A stretch of DNA of 36,695 nucleotides, from positions 1 to 36,695 of IMG/VR virus record IMGVR_UViG_3300025601_000057; one strand, given 5' to 3'. Positions 10,485 to 36,695 of the stretch are shown in pieces. Every line of letters begins with the position of its first letter. Within the stretch, counting starts at the first letter, position 1. The notes under the pieces are model-generated. The model saw only the letters and a list, made by a program, of their open reading frames with translations. It had not been told where the DNA came from and did no database searches. The position numbers were made by a program, and so were the translations under genes. Source of the stretch: a virus.

Positions 10485-11848
10485 TGGCTAACATAGATTA
10501 CGCAGGTTTATTGACAGGCATAAGCGGTCAGAACCAACGACCAAGTCCGTTTACTTCTCCTTCAAGAGATCAACAGCTTCTAGGCTTTGCAGCTAAACAG
10601 AACGAAGCATTGACTGGCCGCCTTGGTGGCATGTTTGGACTACAGCAGCAAGACCCTGTAGAGCTTGCTAAGACAAAGCTAGTGGGGCTAGATCCTACAA
10701 ACCCAGCAGATCAAGCACAGTTTATACAGCTGTTGAATATTGTTGATCCTGCGAAGGCTGCTCAGTTTAAACAGCAGTTGGATTCTAAAGCTACTTCGTT
10801 GACTAAGAGTACAAATGATGCTACTACAGTGGCTGACGCATTGCCGGCACAGTACGCATCGTTAGCAAAAGCTGTTCGTAATAAAGTACCTGGCGCTCTT
10901 CAAAGAGCAGTTGAAATACTAGGAGCTGCTCCAACAAAACCAGAAGAAGACCCCGCTTTAGTTAAAGAGTATAGGTTTGCGAAAACACCTAAAGGAGGAA
11001 GTTTTGAAGGCACGTTACAAGACTGGGCAGAGCTTAAAAAAGCTAGAGGAACAGTTATAAAAACTACTCAAACTCCTGCAGAAAAAATGACAGAGAATAA
11101 TTTAGAGCGTCAAGCAAAATATGTTGATATAACTGCACCTGTAGCTGCAACGGCTGTCACGGATAAGCAAGCAGCAAACGCTATACTGAATGAAGTAGAA
11201 AAAGGTTTTGACACAGGCATGGTTGCTAATTTTGTAGCTAACCAATCTAAAAATTTACAAGGTATTTTTCAACTAGCGGGCGTAGCTTATCCGGAATCTT
11301 TTTCTGAGAAAATTAAAGATCAAGCTGTTCTAAAGATTTTACAGAACGAAGCTATTATACCAATGATGGATGCGCAAGGTAAAGGATTTACAGATAAAGA
11401 TTTAGAATATCAGCAGGACGTGCTACCTGGTTACACCCAGCCTTGGCAGTATAACGAAGCAGCGGCAACAATTAAGTTACATAAAGCTGTAAATCAGATT
11501 GAAGAAAACACTTTTGCTAATCAACGTGCTAACTTATCTGAAGTGACTCCATTAGACCATACTACTTTATGGGATGATTATTTAACTAAAATCCCTAGAA
11601 GTAAAATAGCAGCAGCTAAAAGAAACGGTATTGATTACAAAAGAATGGAAGTCATACAGGACAGTGCTAATCTTTCACAATACTGGGTAAAAGATAAGCC
11701 TAGAGGTTTTACCTTGTCGATCAAAGGCGAGAATAAAGATGTAACTTGGGCTGATATTAAAGACACTGCCGCAGCTAATGACATGAACATTAGAGAATTT
11801 TTAGCAGCTTATGAAAACCAAGGTTTAATTGTAAAAGGCGTTTACTAA
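10484..11848 (+). CDS. Putative internal virion protein (second of three)
   Basis: A 454-residue mostly helical protein starting ATGGCTAACATAG at the overlap with the upstream stop (TAATG). Visible blocks are a polar N-terminus, a DPTNPADQAQFIQLLNIVDP motif (residues ~70-88) and a charged C-terminal half (KDLEYQQDVLPGYTQPWQYNE; DDYLTKIPRSKIAAAKRNGI). By position it would correspond to T7 gp15, part of the ejection apparatus, but I see no sequence motif proving this. It is translationally coupled to both neighbours. Confidence 0.55.
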   Translation: MANIDYAGLLTGISGQNQRPSPFTSPSRDQQLLGFAAKQNEALTGRLGGMFGLQQQDPVELAKTKLVGLDPTNPADQAQFIQLLNIVDPAKAAQFKQQLDSKATSLTKSTNDATTVADALPAQYASLAKAVRNKVPGALQRAVEILGAAPTKPEEDPALVKEYRFAKTPKGGSFEGTLQDWAELKKARGTVIKTTQTPAEKMTENNLERQAKYVDITAPVAATAVTDKQAANAILNEVEKGFDTGMVANFVANQSKNLQGIFQLAGVAYPESFSEKIKDQAVLKILQNEAIIPMMDAQGKGFTDKDLEYQQDVLPGYTQPWQYNEAAATIKLHKAVNQIEENTFANQRANLSEVTPLDHTTLWDDYLTKIPRSKIAAAKRNGIDYKRMEVIQDSANLSQYWVKDKPRGFTLSIKGENKDVTWADIKDTAAANDMNIREFLAAYENQGLIVKGVY

Positions 11849-14799
11849 TGGCAATATTCGACACTTCTAACGTAATCTTTGAGTCAGGAGCTTCTAGCAA
11901 TGGGGTTGTTTTTGATACAGGTATTGAGTTCCCTAACGAAGTCATTGCAAGACTAGCTGGCGAAAAAAGAATAGAAGAGCTGCAAGGAGGAGCAACACCG
12001 CCTACATCTTTTCCAGAAGTTCCTGTTCTTTCTGATCAAGGCACTAATGTTACTCCACGCCCAGAGGAAAGTTTACTACAACAAGCAGGAGAAGAGCTAC
12101 GCTATCGTACAGCGCCTGTTGTAAATCCTGTAATGGAAGTGGTAGACGCTATGGTAACGCCTATTTATAGTTTTGGCTATGACATGGCTGTGCGGGTTCC
12201 TACTTACTTAGCTACTATGGGAACTAGAAACTTAGAAAACCTAGCGGAATCTTCTAACGTAAACATAGACATGGAGTGGGAAGGCGGCTACGACATAGGA
12301 GTTCCTGATTTATTCAGAAACAAGAGTTTTGTTAATGATGCTGAAACTGAACAATTCTTAGACAAAGGCGGTTTTTACGCTTCTCTTGGTCTTGGTATTA
12401 CCAGTGCTGCTCGTGCTTCAATAAACATGTTAGGCGCTGGCTTTGTCAACTACGGGAAAAGAGGAGTCGCGCTAAACCCTAAAACTGGTCAGCCTTTTGT
12501 AGGAGTAGAAGGAGCGCGGACAGGTATCACAAGGTCTCTAGCAGAGTCTTCGCTACCTACTGAAGCTAAAGTAGCGTTAGCTATGGCTGTGGCGGGAGAA
12601 GTAGCTTCTGCTGCTACTGGCTCAGACAGTGCTCTTATAGCTTTGCCTGCTGAAATTGCTGGTGGTTTTGCAGCAGCGCGTAAACCAGCTACTTATTTAG
12701 AAGCTGCTACTGGCATTATTAAGTACGCAGACACAGGTGTTGAGGTAGTAGGTAAGAAAATAATAGACGCTTTTGATGCTAAGTTTGGGGAAGACGCAGT
12801 AACTTTAGCTAGTCAACGAATTAGAGGAGAGAGTGTCAGCCCTTTAGAAGCTAAACTAGCTTTAGAAACTGCTGACGATGCTTCTATTTTATCTGTAGCT
12901 CAACAAACAAATGACTCAGGTATCCTCACTTTAGAAAGAGCGTTAGCTGCTGAGGACAGTGTTTTTGCAGGTTTTGTAGACGACCAAGTTGATCAAGCTC
13001 AGTACTCGTTAGCGAGAGAATTAGAAACTCTAATGAATCCAGAAAGCAGTTCTTTAGATTGGACAGCACTAAAAGACTTCTTGCCTAAGATACAAAACGA
13101 CTTGATAGCTCAAGTAGACGACAGAGTTATGATTGAGACAGAGAAGCTTACTAAGCTTTTAAAAGTTTACGATGGCGATGTCACTAAAATGTCCAAAGAG
13201 TTTGAGGAATCTTTTAATAAAATATACGCAGATGTTAAACAACAAGAAAACAACCTCTGGCAGCCTATAAACGACTCTGTAAAGATACCGACTAAACCTT
13301 TAGTAGACGCTGTTGAAACAATTGTCGCTAACTCCAGCTCACAAGCAGTGCTTCCTGCCGAGGAGTTTGCTAACATTCTAGGAAAAGGTGTTGCACGTAC
13401 AGGTAAAGGCTGGAAGACGTTTGAAGTTACTCCTGATAACAAGAAGCGGTTAGCTGAAGCAGGCGTAAAAGTTAAATGGCCTGACGCACCTCTACAAACT
13501 GTAGAAGCTCCTCTAGTCCTTAGAGATTTAAGAAGCAAGCTCAACTCCATGGCTAGAAGCGCAAACGCAGCGACAGACCCTACTTTTCAATATAACCAGA
13601 AAGCTCTAGGGGAAGCTCAGCAAGCTGCTTTAGACAATATAACACTAGGTGTTGAAAGTGTTAATCCACAGCTTCGTGAGTACTATTTAGCGGCTACTGC
13701 TTTCTCTAAAAAAATACACGACACTTTCACTAGAGGAACTTTTGTACCCAAAGCTAAGAAGGCGGTTAAAGAGAAGAAGCTAGAGACAATGGTAGGCGGT
13801 CAAACAGCCAAGCAAACTGACATGGATATTGTTGCTAGGGAGATGGAAGAAGTCTTTAATTTAGCAACGTCTGGCAGCAGCGCCGCCCAGTCTAACGCTT
13901 TAAAACAGGCTGAAGGCTTTCTTCTTGCTAAGTTCCAGGCTCAGGTAAACCCTAATAAACTAGAAGATTTCAAGGCGTTTGAAACTTCCCACTCGTCTTG
14001 GATAGAAAGATTCCCAGCAGTAGGTGAAGCTATTAAAGCAGCAAAGAAAAAGGCGAGGTCTCAAGGGAAAGTAGTACAGAACGCTGAAACAGCAGCGGAA
14101 GTGGCGCGTTTGGACGACTTCTACGGAGTGGCTAACATGACGCCAGAGCAGGTTATGGATGTTATTCTTAAATCTTCAAGCCCTACACAAACTTCTGCCA
14201 GGTTCCGCAAGCTTTTAAGCACTAACAAAGAAGCTCTTGCTGTATTTAAAGAACAGGTTGCTAATCGTGTGGTTGCGCAATCAATGAAAATTGTTGATTC
14301 GCAAGTAGCAGGTAAAGGCAACGTAGAGCTTATTGATCCTGTTAGTTTTTCAAAAATTCTAAAAGATTTTAAGCCGTTGACTGCCGTGTTTAACACTGCT
14401 GAACAGAAAGGTTTAGAGCTGTTGCTTAGAGATGTAAGCAGTATAAGTAAATCTCTATCTGCTAAAAGAGGATATACAAAAGTTGCACCCCCTAAAACAA
14501 GTGCTGGTCTAATACTAGCGGCTAAGTTAGCTGCTTTGAAAGGCGTTAACTTACTAGCCGGTTCTTCTTCTATTGTGTTGGCGGGCACAGCTTCTAACGC
14601 CGCAACTAAAGCAATACAAAACTTAGGAGTAGAAGCGTCTAGTAAAGTTCTAAAAGAAGCTTATAAGAACCCAGAGCTTATGAAAGTTCTCCTTAGTAAG
14701 GATATCACAAGGAACCAGCTACAACTTTTGCAGTCAGGTAGGTTTAAAACAGGACGTATTATTTATAACGCTTTAACAGAGAAGGCAACTCAGCAGTAA
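11848..14799 (+). CDS. Large putative internal virion/ejection protein (third of three)
   Basis: A 983-residue protein ending the rightward transcription unit. It is helix-rich, with a hydrophobic segment near residues 885-925 (AGLILAAKLAALKGVNLLAG, SSIVLAGTASNAATKAI) and another around 240-285 rich in Ala. T7 gp16 (1318 residues), the largest ejection protein, occupies the same relative place. I could not find the lytic transglycosylase glutamate motif that gp16 carries at its N-terminus, so this one may lack that activity. The TAA stop at 14797 is followed within four bases by the bidirectional terminator. Confidence 0.6.
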   Translation: MAIFDTSNVIFESGASSNGVVFDTGIEFPNEVIARLAGEKRIEELQGGATPPTSFPEVPVLSDQGTNVTPRPEESLLQQAGEELRYRTAPVVNPVMEVVDAMVTPIYSFGYDMAVRVPTYLATMGTRNLENLAESSNVNIDMEWEGGYDIGVPDLFRNKSFVNDAETEQFLDKGGFYASLGLGITSAARASINMLGAGFVNYGKRGVALNPKTGQPFVGVEGARTGITRSLAESSLPTEAKVALAMAVAGEVASAATGSDSALIALPAEIAGGFAAARKPATYLEAATGIIKYADTGVEVVGKKIIDAFDAKFGEDAVTLASQRIRGESVSPLEAKLALETADDASILSVAQQTNDSGILTLERALAAEDSVFAGFVDDQVDQAQYSLARELETLMNPESSSLDWTALKDFLPKIQNDLIAQVDDRVMIETEKLTKLLKVYDGDVTKMSKEFEESFNKIYADVKQQENNLWQPINDSVKIPTKPLVDAVETIVANSSSQAVLPAEEFANILGKGVARTGKGWKTFEVTPDNKKRLAEAGVKVKWPDAPLQTVEAPLVLRDLRSKLNSMARSANAATDPTFQYNQKALGEAQQAALDNITLGVESVNPQLREYYLAATAFSKKIHDTFTRGTFVPKAKKAVKEKKLETMVGGQTAKQTDMDIVAREMEEVFNLATSGSSAAQSNALKQAEGFLLAKFQAQVNPNKLEDFKAFETSHSSWIERFPAVGEAIKAAKKKARSQGKVVQNAETAAEVARLDDFYGVANMTPEQVMDVILKSSSPTQTSARFRKLLSTNKEALAVFKEQVANRVVAQSMKIVDSQVAGKGNVELIDPVSFSKILKDFKPLTAVFNTAEQKGLELLLRDVSSISKSLSAKRGYTKVAPPKTSAGLILAAKLAALKGVNLLAGSSSIVLAGTASNAATKAIQNLGVEASSKVLKEAYKNPELMKVLLSKDITRNQLQLLQSGRFKTGRIIYNALTEKATQQ

Positions 14800-24609: not shown

Positions 24610-24819
24610 TTAAATTTCCTCTATGTCGTATACGTAACCGTAAGAAATAATAAGGAACGGCAATAGTAGAATAAGACCGTCCATCGGCATAACCGTAGTC
24701 TCATCTGTTTCCGTGTTGTAAACCCAAACAGGTCTAGATTCTACAGCCTCCAGGTCAAACAGGCCAACACCCATTCGGAACTCTATTGACAACAATCTAT
24801 CGAATATCCACCATCTCAT
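24610..24819 (-). CDS. Small membrane-type hypothetical protein
   Basis: A 69-residue protein, MRWWIFDRLLSIEFRMGVGLFDLEAVESRPVWVYNTETDE (first half, shown in part) and a hydrophobic C-terminal stretch (GLILLLPFLIISYGYVYDIEE). One membrane helix is likely. Its start overlaps the previous stop (TAATG) and it ends two bases before the primase-helicase start. I recognise no family. Confidence 0.65.
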   Translation of the reverse strand: MRWWIFDRLLSIEFRMGVGLFDLEAVESRPVWVYNTETDETTVMPMDGLILLLPFLIISYGYVYDIEEI

Positions 24820-25013
24820 TATTTTATACCTCTGTTAAATTTATCATACTCTCGCATCTCTTTAAGAAACTGACTAAGTGCTTCAGTGTCCACCGCGTAC
24901 AGTCTAGCAGCGTCTAATAAAGATAACAACCCGCCCCCAACATCATTGGCAGCTCTCAACAGCGCCATCGTGTACGGCGTCAGTGCGCCACTTGTCATAT
25001 ATTGTTGAAACAT
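24819..25013 (-). CDS. Small helical hypothetical protein
   Basis: A 64-residue protein, MFQQYMTSGALTPYTMALLR followed by AANDVGGGLLSLLDAARLYA and a charged end. Predicted all-helical. It is the first gene after the noncoding stretch at 25014-25159; an AGGCGA sequence 8 bases before the ATG is a weak ribosome-binding site. No family recognised. Confidence 0.6.
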   Translation of the reverse strand: MFQQYMTSGALTPYTMALLRAANDVGGGLLSLLDAARLYAVDTEALSQFLKEMREYDKFNRGIK

Positions 25014-25159
25014 AATTATTCGCCTGGTTGACAGTGTTTTTAATGTGACTATAATAGATCTCTAGAGACCGCTAGTTATCTTTTAAAGCTCTTCAGAGGT
25101 TAACAACAAGTAGTAGAAGCTAAAACCCTAAAAGAGCTCTAAAAGGTCTCTATAGAGCC
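25014..25159. promoter_or_regulatory. Noncoding control segment with palindromes and hairpin
   Basis: No gene. It contains the plus-strand promoter, the palindrome TCTCTAGAGA (25059-25068), CTTTTAAAG, ACCCTAAAAGA and the palindrome CTCTATAGAG (25148-25157). The last is inside a bulged hairpin (AAGG 25043+100 to CTT at 25161) followed on the minus strand by TTTT, so it may act as a leftward terminator or attenuator. The same elements recur at 27423-27577. Confidence 0.55.
25028..25055 (+). promoter_or_regulatory. Consensus sigma-70 promoter pointing against the early genes
   Basis: TTGACA (25028-25033), 16-bp spacer, TATAAT (25050-25055) on the plus strand, in a noncoding gap. All genes to the right for 1.7 kb are on the minus strand, so transcripts from here would be antisense to them or a short noncoding RNA. 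A palindrome lies at the expected start site. Confidence 0.75.
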
Positions 25160-25436: not shown

Positions 25437-25465
25437 ATTATAGCGCAATACGCAACCATTTATCA
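25437..25465 (-). promoter_or_regulatory. Possible leftward promoter with strong -10 only
   Basis: TATAAT at 25442-25437 in the context GCTATAATAGAC, the same as the late promoter, but the -35 position (TGATAA, 25465-25460) is poor. It lies 30 bases before the ATG at 25405. Confidence 0.4.
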
Positions 25466-25707
25466 GACTCTCGCATTTCTTTATTCTCTAACCTGTTCTC
25501 TAGCTCCTCTCTGCGCCTTGCTAACGGCCCTATAATAGGCGGACCGCTCGGTCTAACGTCTCGCTCTGTGAAGTCTTTCTTGTAGCGTAGGCGGCTGTGC
25601 AGTGTTGACTTGTTGATCTCTGTTATTAGGTGAAGCGTCGGTATAGTGTAATAGGCGTTTGCAACCAGGCGCGGGTGATCTCCTATAAACTTAAAACTTT
25701 TATTCAT
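25438..25707 (-). CDS. Small basic protein with helix-turn-helix-like segment
   Basis: I chose ATG 25707 (MNKSFKFIGDHPRLVANAYYT), which has a GAGGAA site upstream and overlaps a micro-ORF stop (ATGA). It gives 89 residues. ITEINKSTLHSRLRYKKDF resembles the recognition part of small phage helix-turn-helix proteins (a turn followed by 'STLxxRLxxKxxF'), then a basic Pro-rich stretch and a charged helix (RREELENRLENKEMRESDKW). It is a candidate regulator of the early/late switch, but this is weak evidence. Confidence 0.65.
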   Translation of the reverse strand: MNKSFKFIGDHPRLVANAYYTIPTLHLITEINKSTLHSRLRYKKDFTERDVRPSGPPIIGPLARRREELENRLENKEMRESDKWLRIAL

Positions 25708-26855: not shown

Positions 26856-26870
26856 GCACCGTTTTGGTGC
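26856..26870 (-). promoter_or_regulatory. Hairpin abutting the ribosome-binding site of the first early gene
   Basis: GCACC-AAAAC-GGTGC (minus strand) ends one base before AGGAG. It could modulate ribosome access. Confidence 0.45.
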
Positions 26871-26907: not shown

Positions 26908-26935
26908 ACTATATAGAATGCAAGCAGGCAGTCAA
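26908..26935 (-). promoter_or_regulatory. Leftward early promoter, proximal
   Basis: Minus strand TTGACT (26935-26930), 16-bp spacer, TATAGT (26913-26908), about 65 bases before the first early ATG. Confidence 0.65.
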
Positions 26936-26994: not shown

Positions 26995-27393
26995 TAGCCT
27001 ACAGTGCTAACGATCCAGGTCTTCATAAGCTGCAGTGATATAGGTGGGGGTGCTGGGTGGTCTGTATAGTACCACTATAGACTCTCACTCCTCACTCTAC
27101 AGCCTGTGGATAACCTGTGGATAACTATAGAGGTGGGTGTTCTTTAGAGGCCGGGGAGGGTCTGGGGTGTGCGGAGATTGTTACTGTACCCGCCTAGATA
27201 CAAAAAAGGGTCAAATTAGAACAATAATAACAAGGCAGTAGACAGTCTGTGTAGTCCTTGTAAGCTGTTGATTACTATAGAGAATAAGGGCGGGGCTGCG
27301 GAGTCTCTAGGGCTGCTGAGATCCGCTGATGAAGGGACGGGGATGTATGTAACAGCCCTATGTAATTTATTTACTCTATATAGTAATCTCTGC
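26995..27393. other. Divergent intergenic control region, candidate replication origin
   Basis: About 400 bases without a convincing gene, between the leftward and rightward promoters. It holds the inverted repeat TATAGT-ACC-ACTATA (27065-27079), two tandem DnaA boxes (27105-27124), two G-rich patches (27042-27060, 27133-27176), an A-run (27205-27210) and copies of ACTATAGAG. A short rightward frame from 27268 overlaps the late promoter and looks accidental. Confidence 0.55.
27105..27124 (-). promoter_or_regulatory. Two tandem DnaA boxes
   Basis: TGTGGATAA at 27105-27113 and 27116-27124, i.e. TTATCCACA on the minus strand, both exact matches to the bacterial DnaA box, 11 bp apart. Confidence 0.7.
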
Positions 27394-27422
27394 TTGACTT
27401 TTGCTCTAAAATATGCTATAAT
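27394..27422 (+). promoter_or_regulatory. Rightward sigma-70 promoter of the late arm
   Basis: TTGACT (27394-27399), 17-bp spacer, TATAAT (27417-27422) with extended -10 TGC. Leader of about 155 bases to the small terminase gene. Confidence 0.88.
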
Positions 27423-27424
27423 AG

Positions 27425-27436
27425 ACTCTATAGAGT
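27425..27436. promoter_or_regulatory. 12-bp palindrome at the late promoter start site
   Basis: ACTCTATAGAGT is a perfect palindrome beginning three bases after the -10, the same placement as TCTCTAGAGA at the 25028 promoter. Likely an operator. Confidence 0.6.
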
Positions 27437-27481
27437 TAAGTAAGAGACCTTTTAAAGACTTGATAGAGACCCTAAAAGAAT

Positions 27482-27505
27482 AACTACTTTCAACTTCCAG
27501 TAGTT
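27482..27505 (+). promoter_or_regulatory. Hairpin in the late leader
   Basis: AACTACT (27482-27488) pairs with AGTAGTT (27499-27505) across a 10-base loop. It is flanked on both sides by ACCCTAAAAGA copies (27468, 27518 areas). Confidence 0.5.
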
Positions 27506-27585
27506 GTTCTCGTAGAAACCCTAAAAGACATTAAAAGATCTCTTGTTTAACTAAACAGAACTTTATAGACTATAGAGGCAATTCT

Positions 27586-27966
27586 GTGTCTGAGAACAAA
27601 AGAGTAGGCAGGCCCTCAAAGAAGGATGTTTCATCTGTTAAGAAAGGTAACAGGAATTCTGTTGGTAGACCCAAAGGGGATGCTGCTACAATCAATGAGT
27701 ACAAAGCACGTATGCTTGCATCTCCTAAGAGTAGGAAGGTGTTAGACAGTATCCTCAATGCAGCTCTTGATGACGATCACAAGAACCAGGCAGCAGCATG
27801 GAAGTTGTGTATGGATCGTTTGTTACCTGTTAGCTATTTCGAGAAGGATAAGGCTGGAGGAGGCAGAGGCGCTATCAACATATCTATTACTGGTGTTGGT
27901 GGTGAGACTACTGTTATCTCAGGCGGTGAAGAAGACATAGAAGAGGGTAACTATTCAGATGTATGA
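27586..27966 (+). CDS. terS: Putative small terminase subunit
   Basis: A 126-residue protein starting at GTG 27586 (AGAGG site upstream; first gene of the late arm). The N-terminus is basic with two AT-hook-like cores, KRVGRPSKK and SVGRPKGD, followed by a helical segment (NEYKARMLASPKSRKVLDSILNAALDDDHKNQAAAW, shown in part) and a Gly/acidic tail. Small terminases recognise the packaging site on DNA. Place immediately upstream of the endolysin and large terminase, size and DNA-binding motifs all fit. The family match is by context more than sequence. Confidence 0.7.
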   Translation: MSENKRVGRPSKKDVSSVKKGNRNSVGRPKGDAATINEYKARMLASPKSRKVLDSILNAALDDDHKNQAAAWKLCMDRLLPVSYFEKDKAGGGRGAINISITGVGGETTVISGGEEDIEEGNYSDV

Positions 27967-32090: not shown

Positions 32091-32119
32091 TTGACTTTTA
32101 AGTGAAAGTGTGCTATAAT
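32091..32119 (+). promoter_or_regulatory. Sigma-70 promoter of the capsid cluster
   Basis: TTGACT (32091-32096), 17-bp spacer, TATAAT (32114-32119) with extended -10 TGC. The leader is about 36 bases. It should add transcription of the scaffold and capsid genes. No palindrome follows it. Confidence 0.88.
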
Positions 32120-32161
32120 ACATCAGTAATTCAACTAAACTGTCCTTAATGGAGAAACAGT

Positions 32162-35529: not shown

Positions 35530-36695
35530 ATGGCAACAAAAATTGTAACTAAAAATAGCTCCACAGCTTCGAGCGTACCTACAGCAGCGCAGCTTGTTCA
35601 AGGAGAGCTGGCGGTCAACGTAGCGGACAAGCGGCTATATACTGAAGATAACGCAGGTGCTGTTGTTTTGCTGGCTGACGGCACTAAGCTAGATGGCATT
35701 GAAGCCTTAGCAGATGTTACAGATGTAACCAACGTCACAGCCGCTGGTGCTTTGATGGACTCAGAGCTTACTAGCATTGCAAGCGTTAAAGCTCTTGACC
35801 AAGGCGTAGCTACTACTGATAGCCCTACGTTTGCGGCAATAGACGTTACCGGCACAGCCACGATGGATGGGCTTTTGGTTGAAGGAGAAACAGCAGGTCA
35901 AGGGGCTTCTATAGAAGTACACGCAACTACTGCAGAGTTTGGTGATGCTCTTTTAATTGCAAAATCAGATAACGCAAGTGATTCTATTCATGCAGGAGTA
36001 AAGATTCAGGGAAGTAACAATCCTTTTTACATCTATCAATCTAACGGCTCGAACACTAATAAGTTAAGGTTTAATTATAATTCGATGTCCGATGCAGGTG
36101 GTCAAATGACTATAGCTTCCAACGGAGACATCAGTTTCTACGAGGACACAGGCACAACGGCTAAGTTCTTCTGGGATGCGTCTGCGGAGTCTTTAGCGCT
36201 TTCAGGCACTGGCGGTTTAGACATCGCAGGCAACATAGACGTAGATGGCGTTACTCACTTGGACGTTGTGGATATAGATGGCGCTGTGGCTATGGCTAGT
36301 ACATTGGCTGTGTCGAGTGATGTAGGCTTACATAGCGGCTCTACTCTTTCTATCGGAGGCACTGCAACAAGCTCAACAGCAATAGGTTCACTAGGTAATA
36401 CGGCAGGTGTGCTCACAATAGATACTGATGGTACTCGATCAATCAACCTCTCCACAGGAGGCACAGTACGGTTGTTTGTTAGTGGCGCAGACGGCTCACT
36501 CAGCACCCCAACATTAGGAACCTCCAACGTCCGCTTTGGCGTAAACGCAGGTAACTCCATCATCGCGGATGGTAACTACAATACTCTTGTGGGTGATGAG
36601 GCAGGTACTGCTATTACTACTGGTGATGTAAATACATTTGTAGGTTACTCCGCAGGTGCCGCGACTACTACAGGAGGTTCAAACTCGGGTTTTGG
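35530..36695 (+). CDS. Tail fibre protein, N-terminal part (3' truncated by window edge)
   Basis: The frame is open from ATG 35530 (AAAGG site upstream) to the end, 388 codons plus two bases. It opens MATKIVTKNSSTASSVPTAA and QLVQGELAVNVADKRLYTED, a common marine phage fibre start, followed by beta repeats (ITDVTGTATMDGLL-type, VDGVTHLDVVDIDG) and a glycine-rich 'NTLVGDEAG...NTFVGYSAGAATTTGG' repeat at the end. Residues ~155-220 match the start of the fibre fragment at bases 3-200. The C-terminal part is most likely the S74-type fragment at 3-1526 or a variant of it. Confidence 0.88.
   Translation, partial: MATKIVTKNSSTASSVPTAAQLVQGELAVNVADKRLYTEDNAGAVVLLADGTKLDGIEALADVTDVTNVTAAGALMDSELTSIASVKALDQGVATTDSPTFAAIDVTGTATMDGLLVEGETAGQGASIEVHATTAEFGDALLIAKSDNASDSIHAGVKIQGSNNPFYIYQSNGSNTNKLRFNYNSMSDAGGQMTIASNGDISFYEDTGTTAKFFWDASAESLALSGTGGLDIAGNIDVDGVTHLDVVDIDGAVAMASTLAVSSDVGLHSGSTLSIGGTATSSTAIGSLGNTAGVLTIDTDGTRSINLSTGGTVRLFVSGADGSLSTPTLGTSNVRFGVNAGNSIIADGNYNTLVGDEAGTAITTGDVNTFVGYSAGAATTTGGSNSGF
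35990..36189 (+). repeat. 200-bp direct repeat, copy B (partner 1-200)
   Basis: Same segment as 1-200 with two base differences, in the same reading frame. The sequence after 36189 differs completely from that after 200. Confidence 0.95.

Follow-up and report, generated by a model that had tools for sequence, protein, structure and literature searches.

How does a phage that likely has no RNA polymerase of its own control the timing of its late genes? We address this question in the window, by which we mean the whole stretch of DNA analysed, an IMG/VR virus record of 36,695 bases from an uncultured, marine podovirus-like phage. A previous reading of this DNA, made from the sequence alone (the sequence-only reading), had placed palindromic operators at the start sites of two promoters and proposed that a single protein blocks both, giving an early/late switch. 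Marine metagenomes contain phages of this group in abundance, although none of their close relatives has been cultured, and their late-gene timing probably depends on the host polymerase alone.

The phage and its genome

The minus strand of the window carries the replication genes (RNR, DNA polymerase, primase-helicase, exonuclease and endonucleases) and the plus strand carries the late genes (TerL, portal, major head protein and tail). The DNA polymerase shares 50% identity with that of Pelagibacter phage HTVC103P and 42-45% with those of roseophages, the portal is distantly related to those of HMO-2011 and CRP phages, and TerL matches cultured phages at less than 60% identity and with partial coverage only. 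A TerL query returned at least 599 related stretches in the viral contigs of one collection, and we therefore regard the virus group as common but uncultured. The first late gene (27586..27966, plus strand, 126 aa, GTG start) lies 5' of endolysin-like and TerL genes. Its product is, by position, a probable small terminase subunit (TerS), with no family match and no homologue found among cultured phages.

The replication genes are related to those of the HMO-2011-type and Cobavirus-group marine podoviruses, but the gene layout of the window is unlike theirs and the similarity of polymerase and portal is distant only. The shared gene order and close core genes that membership in this group would entail are absent. 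For cobaviruses, an RNR and the absence of an RNA polymerase have been reported (PMC6918029). The sequence-only reading took the window phage to have no RNA polymerase either, and indeed none was recognised, which is weak evidence: a search with PF00940 gave no match in the window or in eight relatives and its control was silent too, and the PHROGs search of the window proteins named no polymerase and gave the 983-aa ORF at 11848-14799 no assignment.

Several other features of the record were observed. A 205-base repeat of tail-fibre sequence, 98.5% identical, lies near both record ends (1-205 and about 35990-36194) and suggests either that the genome is circularly permuted or that the tail fibre has variants. 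On the 5' side of the late promoter, a non-coding stretch of about 220 bp (27127-27345), a G-rich block followed by AGATACAAAAAAGGGTCAAATTAGA, is strongly conserved even in L013, and may be an origin or a site of packaging. At 27105-27124, two perfect DnaA-box-like sites TGTGGATAA stand in tandem; they are also present in L086-L088, and are not found in L085 or L084. We also considered a physical genome end or packaging site at the late leader and set it aside, as the contig ends around TerL do not cluster there, which for metagenome contigs is weak evidence.

Palindromes at the predicted start sites of two promoters

The late promoter (27394..27422, plus strand) is of the sigma-70 type and is kept 5' of the TerS homologue in most relatives. 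It consists of TTGACT at 27394-27399, a 17-bp spacer and TATAAT at 27417-27422, with the TG of an extended -10 (TGC) before the -10 box. A T7-type promoter, with the CACTATAG core alone, does not describe it, because TTGAC[TA]-17-TATAAT precedes this core in nearly all relatives. The perfect 12-bp palindrome ACTCTATAGAGT (27425..27436) is centred on the start point predicted from the -10 spacing (27429-27431). A second promoter, TTGACA-16-TATAAT (25028..25055, plus strand, with its -10 at 25050-25055), runs antisense to the early gene block, and at its predicted start lies the perfect 10-bp palindrome TCTCTAGAGA (25059..25068). The centre of each dyad falls 8.5 bases beyond the final base of the -10, so that the two share an identical register, and in each case three bases separate the -10 from the 10-bp core. 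Of 26 sigma-70-like matches in the part of the window scanned (22-36.7 kb), these two promoters rank highest.

The palindromes at the predicted start sites of these two promoters are thus confirmed, and their shared register is not a matter of chance, since the window contains fewer perfect palindromes of at least 10 bp than shuffled sequence does. The 36.7 kb hold 3 perfect palindromes of at least 12 bp and 18 of at least 10 bp, against averages of 10.8 and 44.3 in dinucleotide-shuffled windows, so that the window is depleted overall. With the observed palindrome densities and four allowed centres, the chance of a dyad at a given register on one named promoter is about 3e-4 for 12 bp and about 2e-3 for 10 bp. 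As a side observation, the depletion of palindromes of at least 10 bp (18 versus 44 shuffled) is as expected under restriction avoidance.

Other promoters of the window served as comparisons. A third promoter of the same type, 5' of the capsid gene group (32091..32119, plus strand), has no start palindrome. The promoter scan also gave an early promoter (26908..26935, minus strand), TTGACT-16-TATAGT followed by GGAACCATCAAG, which has no start dyad. The start sequence of the early minus-strand promoters, this one included, is of a TATAAT-GAACCCATCAAG type conserved across the group. A hairpin CTGTCC-N-GGAGAAACAG (32135-32161), which contains the ribosome-binding site, lies 5' of an 85-aa gene and is conserved in the capsid-promoter leaders of nearly all relatives.

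Conservation of the symmetry among relatives

The region 5' of the TerS-position gene was extracted from 157 related loci, and the late promoter was found in nearly all of them. For a divergent set we took 27 representatives less than 75% identical over the first 30 bases. A perfect start dyad with arms of at least 4 bp (at least 8 bp in all) occurs in 13 of these 27, where 1.3 are expected and where 2000 dinucleotide shuffles gave at most 7; the relatives are non-independent samples, and the shuffles correct for composition and not for ancestry. The late-promoter dyad, then, is conserved, and so withstands the check that the sequence-only reading had named for its own refutation. Below 55% identity, start dyads are found in 5 of 9 representatives (0.4 expected), and the signal vanishes 10-18 bases downstream of the start position. 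If a centre of up to 3 bases is allowed, arms of at least 4 bp are found in 20 of the 27, but the null rises too. The letters of the dyad vary by clade (ACTCTATAGAGT, ACTATATAGT, CTATATAG, TAGTATACTA, TAGTATATACTA and ATACTATAGTAT). The early promoters have no start dyad, with only five distinct ones examined, and at the capsid promoters the dyad count is near chance with a small excess. From the excess among divergent relatives and the lack of dyads at early promoters we conclude that the dyad is a feature of the late promoters across the family, in which the symmetry is kept rather than the letters.

Dyad symmetry beyond chance at a fixed promoter position is what a repressor operator would show. 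Other observations speak against an operator: about half of the divergent relatives lack a perfect dyad of at least 8 bp with an even centre, the dyads are mostly TA-rich steps adjoining the AT-rich -10, and we found no candidate binder that is present wherever the dyad occurs. The same sequence at co-regulated promoters, another property of operators, is seen only in L063 and L069, which carry the same ATACTATAGTAT at their late and capsid promoters; neither the window nor most relatives have matching late and capsid dyads within one genome.

The base composition raises the question whether a binder is needed at all. The dyads could be an inherited, TATA-rich initially transcribed sequence that aids promoter opening or escape. 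The AT-rich context would fit this explanation, as would the CTATAG/TATAG-like cores that are common at several promoters of the group, including promoters with no dyad. But far fewer dyads arise when the same bases are shuffled with their dinucleotides preserved, and capsid promoters of similar composition show a much weaker excess. We consider this explanation rather improbable.

The leader of the late transcript

The sequence-only reading was right about the dyads but missed that the late promoter is joined to a hairpin leader. The leader RNA forms a predicted long-range imperfect hairpin (27434..27552, plus strand) with the outer stem GUUAAGUAAGAGA / UCUCUUGUUUAAC, and the fold of 27429-27590 has a z of -5.5, with none of 200 shuffles as stable. 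A short predicted hairpin, CUUUAUA-GAC-UAUAGAG (27561..27577, plus strand), covers the likely ribosome-binding site (AGAGG, 27574-27578) and repeats the start-site core CTATAGAG. Copies of CTATAGAG at 27125, 27275, 27428 and 27570 gave the impression of a regular spacing of about 150 bp, but this is probably coincidence because the copy at 27125 is not conserved. No Rfam 15 family matches the leader at gathering score.

In an arm-swap test, the leaders of the window's superclade pair far better with their own arms than with arms exchanged between relatives (in L001, -39.7 kcal/mol against a swapped median of -16.4 kcal/mol). The own arm ranks 1-6 of 30 for twelve representatives of this superclade, with L056 as the exception at rank 12. 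Within the window's own clade, distinct sequences are too few for covariation. A sister clade supports the fold: two-sided changes affect 10 of 42 pairs there, and the 17 cells with such changes exceed both the 6.7 of shuffles and the slid controls; in a second clade covariation backs the leader fold weakly.

The leaders of the CTTAAG superclade are of a different kind, with no arm-specific pairing in the arm-swap test. A single covarying hairpin was rejected for them, as RNAalifold gave only one local 6-bp hairpin and repeated local palindromes describe them better. In this superclade, an early/middle gene is preceded by a minus-strand promoter whose leader also contains similar palindromes, near the ribosome site. 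Repeated perfect palindromes CTTAAGTATACTTAAG / AAGTATACTTAAGTATACTT are also seen just 5' of ribosome sites in the late and minus-strand leaders of L131, L090, L078, L014 and L150, which belong to a large sister group. Over 17 loci, perfect palindromes of at least 12 bp reach 7.9/kb over the 200 nt that follow the late -10 and 0.12/kb elsewhere, a difference of about 67-fold.

These leaders suggest another explanation, namely that the dyad is a side effect of the RNA: the 5' end of the transcript would pair with a matching sequence immediately ahead of the ribosome-binding site, without any role for a DNA-binding protein. In the window's superclade, a copy of the start-site core is found close to the ribosome site (CTATAGAG at 27570 in the window, AGTCTATATAGACT in L105), this recurring core can pair with the transcript 5' end, and leaders with strong arm-specific pairing exist. 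However, RNA pairing alone fails to explain the symmetry, because the upstream half of the dyad precedes the expected start and would not be transcribed if transcription begins at the usual 7-8 nt. In addition, the CTTAAG superclade has start dyads without arm-specific pairing, and the match between start and leader core is weak overall (p ~0.014). A purely RNA-based origin of the dyad is possible, but we think it unlikely.

The second promoter and the search for a binder

The promoter at 25028 is seen only in L085, L086 and L087, in which its palindrome is identical. Its leader (25060..25157, plus strand) has ends that pair (CTCTAGAGACC...GGTCTCTATAGAG), although the fold of this leader alone is not significant (z -0.9). 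It shares CTTTTAAAG with the late leader; all three window copies of CCCTAAAAGA lie within these two leaders, and of the two genome copies of the 10-mer CTCTATAGAG, one is at the late start and the other (25148) at the distal end of the 25028 leader. Similarity among L085, L086 and L087 falls off directly after TCTCTATAGAG, the end of this leader. Probably, the late promoter-plus-leader module has been copied locally and in part to give the 25028 element, which lies antisense to the early genes. As the promoter points against these genes, interference with them is possible. An antisense RNA running from 25028 to a plus-strand terminator at 26856 was considered and dropped, since the terminator-like hairpin is not found in L085-L087.

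Could one phage repressor act on both palindromes and set an early/late switch, as the sequence-only reading proposed? The register is identical at both promoters, both palindromes are unchanged among the closest relatives, and an early HTH-like protein of 89 aa is encoded nearby (25438..25707, minus strand). The half-sites, however, are CTCTA and TAGAG at the late start and TCTCT and AGAGA at 25059, which shortens the distance between the CTCTA/TAGAG half-sites by 2 bp in the 25028 copy, so that a rigid dimer would not read both dyads equally. Furthermore, the 25028 promoter was found only in three close relatives, and in the window the third such promoter, at 32091, lacks a dyad.

The 89-aa protein had been put forward as the binder, and its N-terminal part is confidently helix-turn-helix-like. 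A PDB fold search gave nothing significant, and sequence searches of Pfam, NCBIfam, PHROGs and PDB gave no convincing family. We set it aside as a general binder because it was not found in L063, L069 and L110, records of 34-38 kb and near-full-length that all have perfect 10-12 bp dyads, although some of the dyad-bearing records may be incomplete. By inspection, its putative recognition helix also does not track the dyad class (L056 versus the window). The C-terminus of this protein family is kept across relatives, and the early proteins at 24819-25013 and 25438-25707 (both minus strand) have the C-terminal motif KEMRE-x-DK in common (KEMREYDKFNR / KEMRESDKWLR). Given the difference in spacing and the relatives that have the dyad but in which the 89-aa gene was not found, we keep the operator-like dyad and drop the shared repressor, which now appears improbable.

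A tentative model for late-gene control

Our preferred reading, which we hold tentatively and at somewhat less than an even chance, is that the late promoter, used by the host polymerase and followed by a structured leader, carries an operator-like dyad of inferred function. The late operon would be transcribed by the host RNA polymerase from a near-consensus promoter whose predicted start point lies within a short DNA dyad, and selection keeps the symmetry of this dyad while its letters drift. The dyad may be the operator of a small dimeric DNA-binding protein of phage or host, and this putative binder would hold an otherwise very strong late promoter back early in infection. By its sequence, the transcript opens with a leader of about 150 nt containing the predicted long hairpin and the short hairpin over the ribosome-binding site, and these hairpins might adjust the stability or translation of the late mRNA.

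A bolder proposal, and in our view a long shot, is that the start-site dyad and the self-paired leader form a fast-evolving late control module and diversify jointly from lineage to lineage, so that each lineage has its own operator/leader type. If true, lytic marine phages dependent on the host polymerase might perhaps gain a form of superinfection or lineage specificity from such types. The dyad element is in any case a concrete and testable candidate site of late-gene control. Given more complete genomes, the set of differing dyads at one position across the family could reveal the binder by co-variation.

Comparison with known systems

A literature search, with limited coverage of subscription journals, found no description of such an element. 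The put RNA of HK022, which acts in cis in antitermination, is likewise structured and lies close to the 5' end of a phage operon, but put consists of two short adjacent stem-loops whereas the window leader is one long imperfect hairpin without an Rfam match. Lambda PR' with its 6S RNA leader under Q control also combines a strong sigma-70 late promoter with a structured leader of about 150-200 nt ahead of the late genes. In contrast to PR', the scan listed no intrinsic-terminator-like site in the window's leader, and no Q-like gene was recognised among the window proteins searched.

The operators of lambda/P22-type phage repressors are short dyads inside the RNA polymerase footprint, by a strong sigma-70 promoter. 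Unlike these, the element of the window's family has one site per promoter, centred on the predicted +1, with dyad letters that change between clades and with no recognisable repressor gene tied to the dyad, in a genome that looks lytic and in which no integrase was seen among the proteins searched. What the two have in common is the placement of a dyad where its occupation would block initiation.
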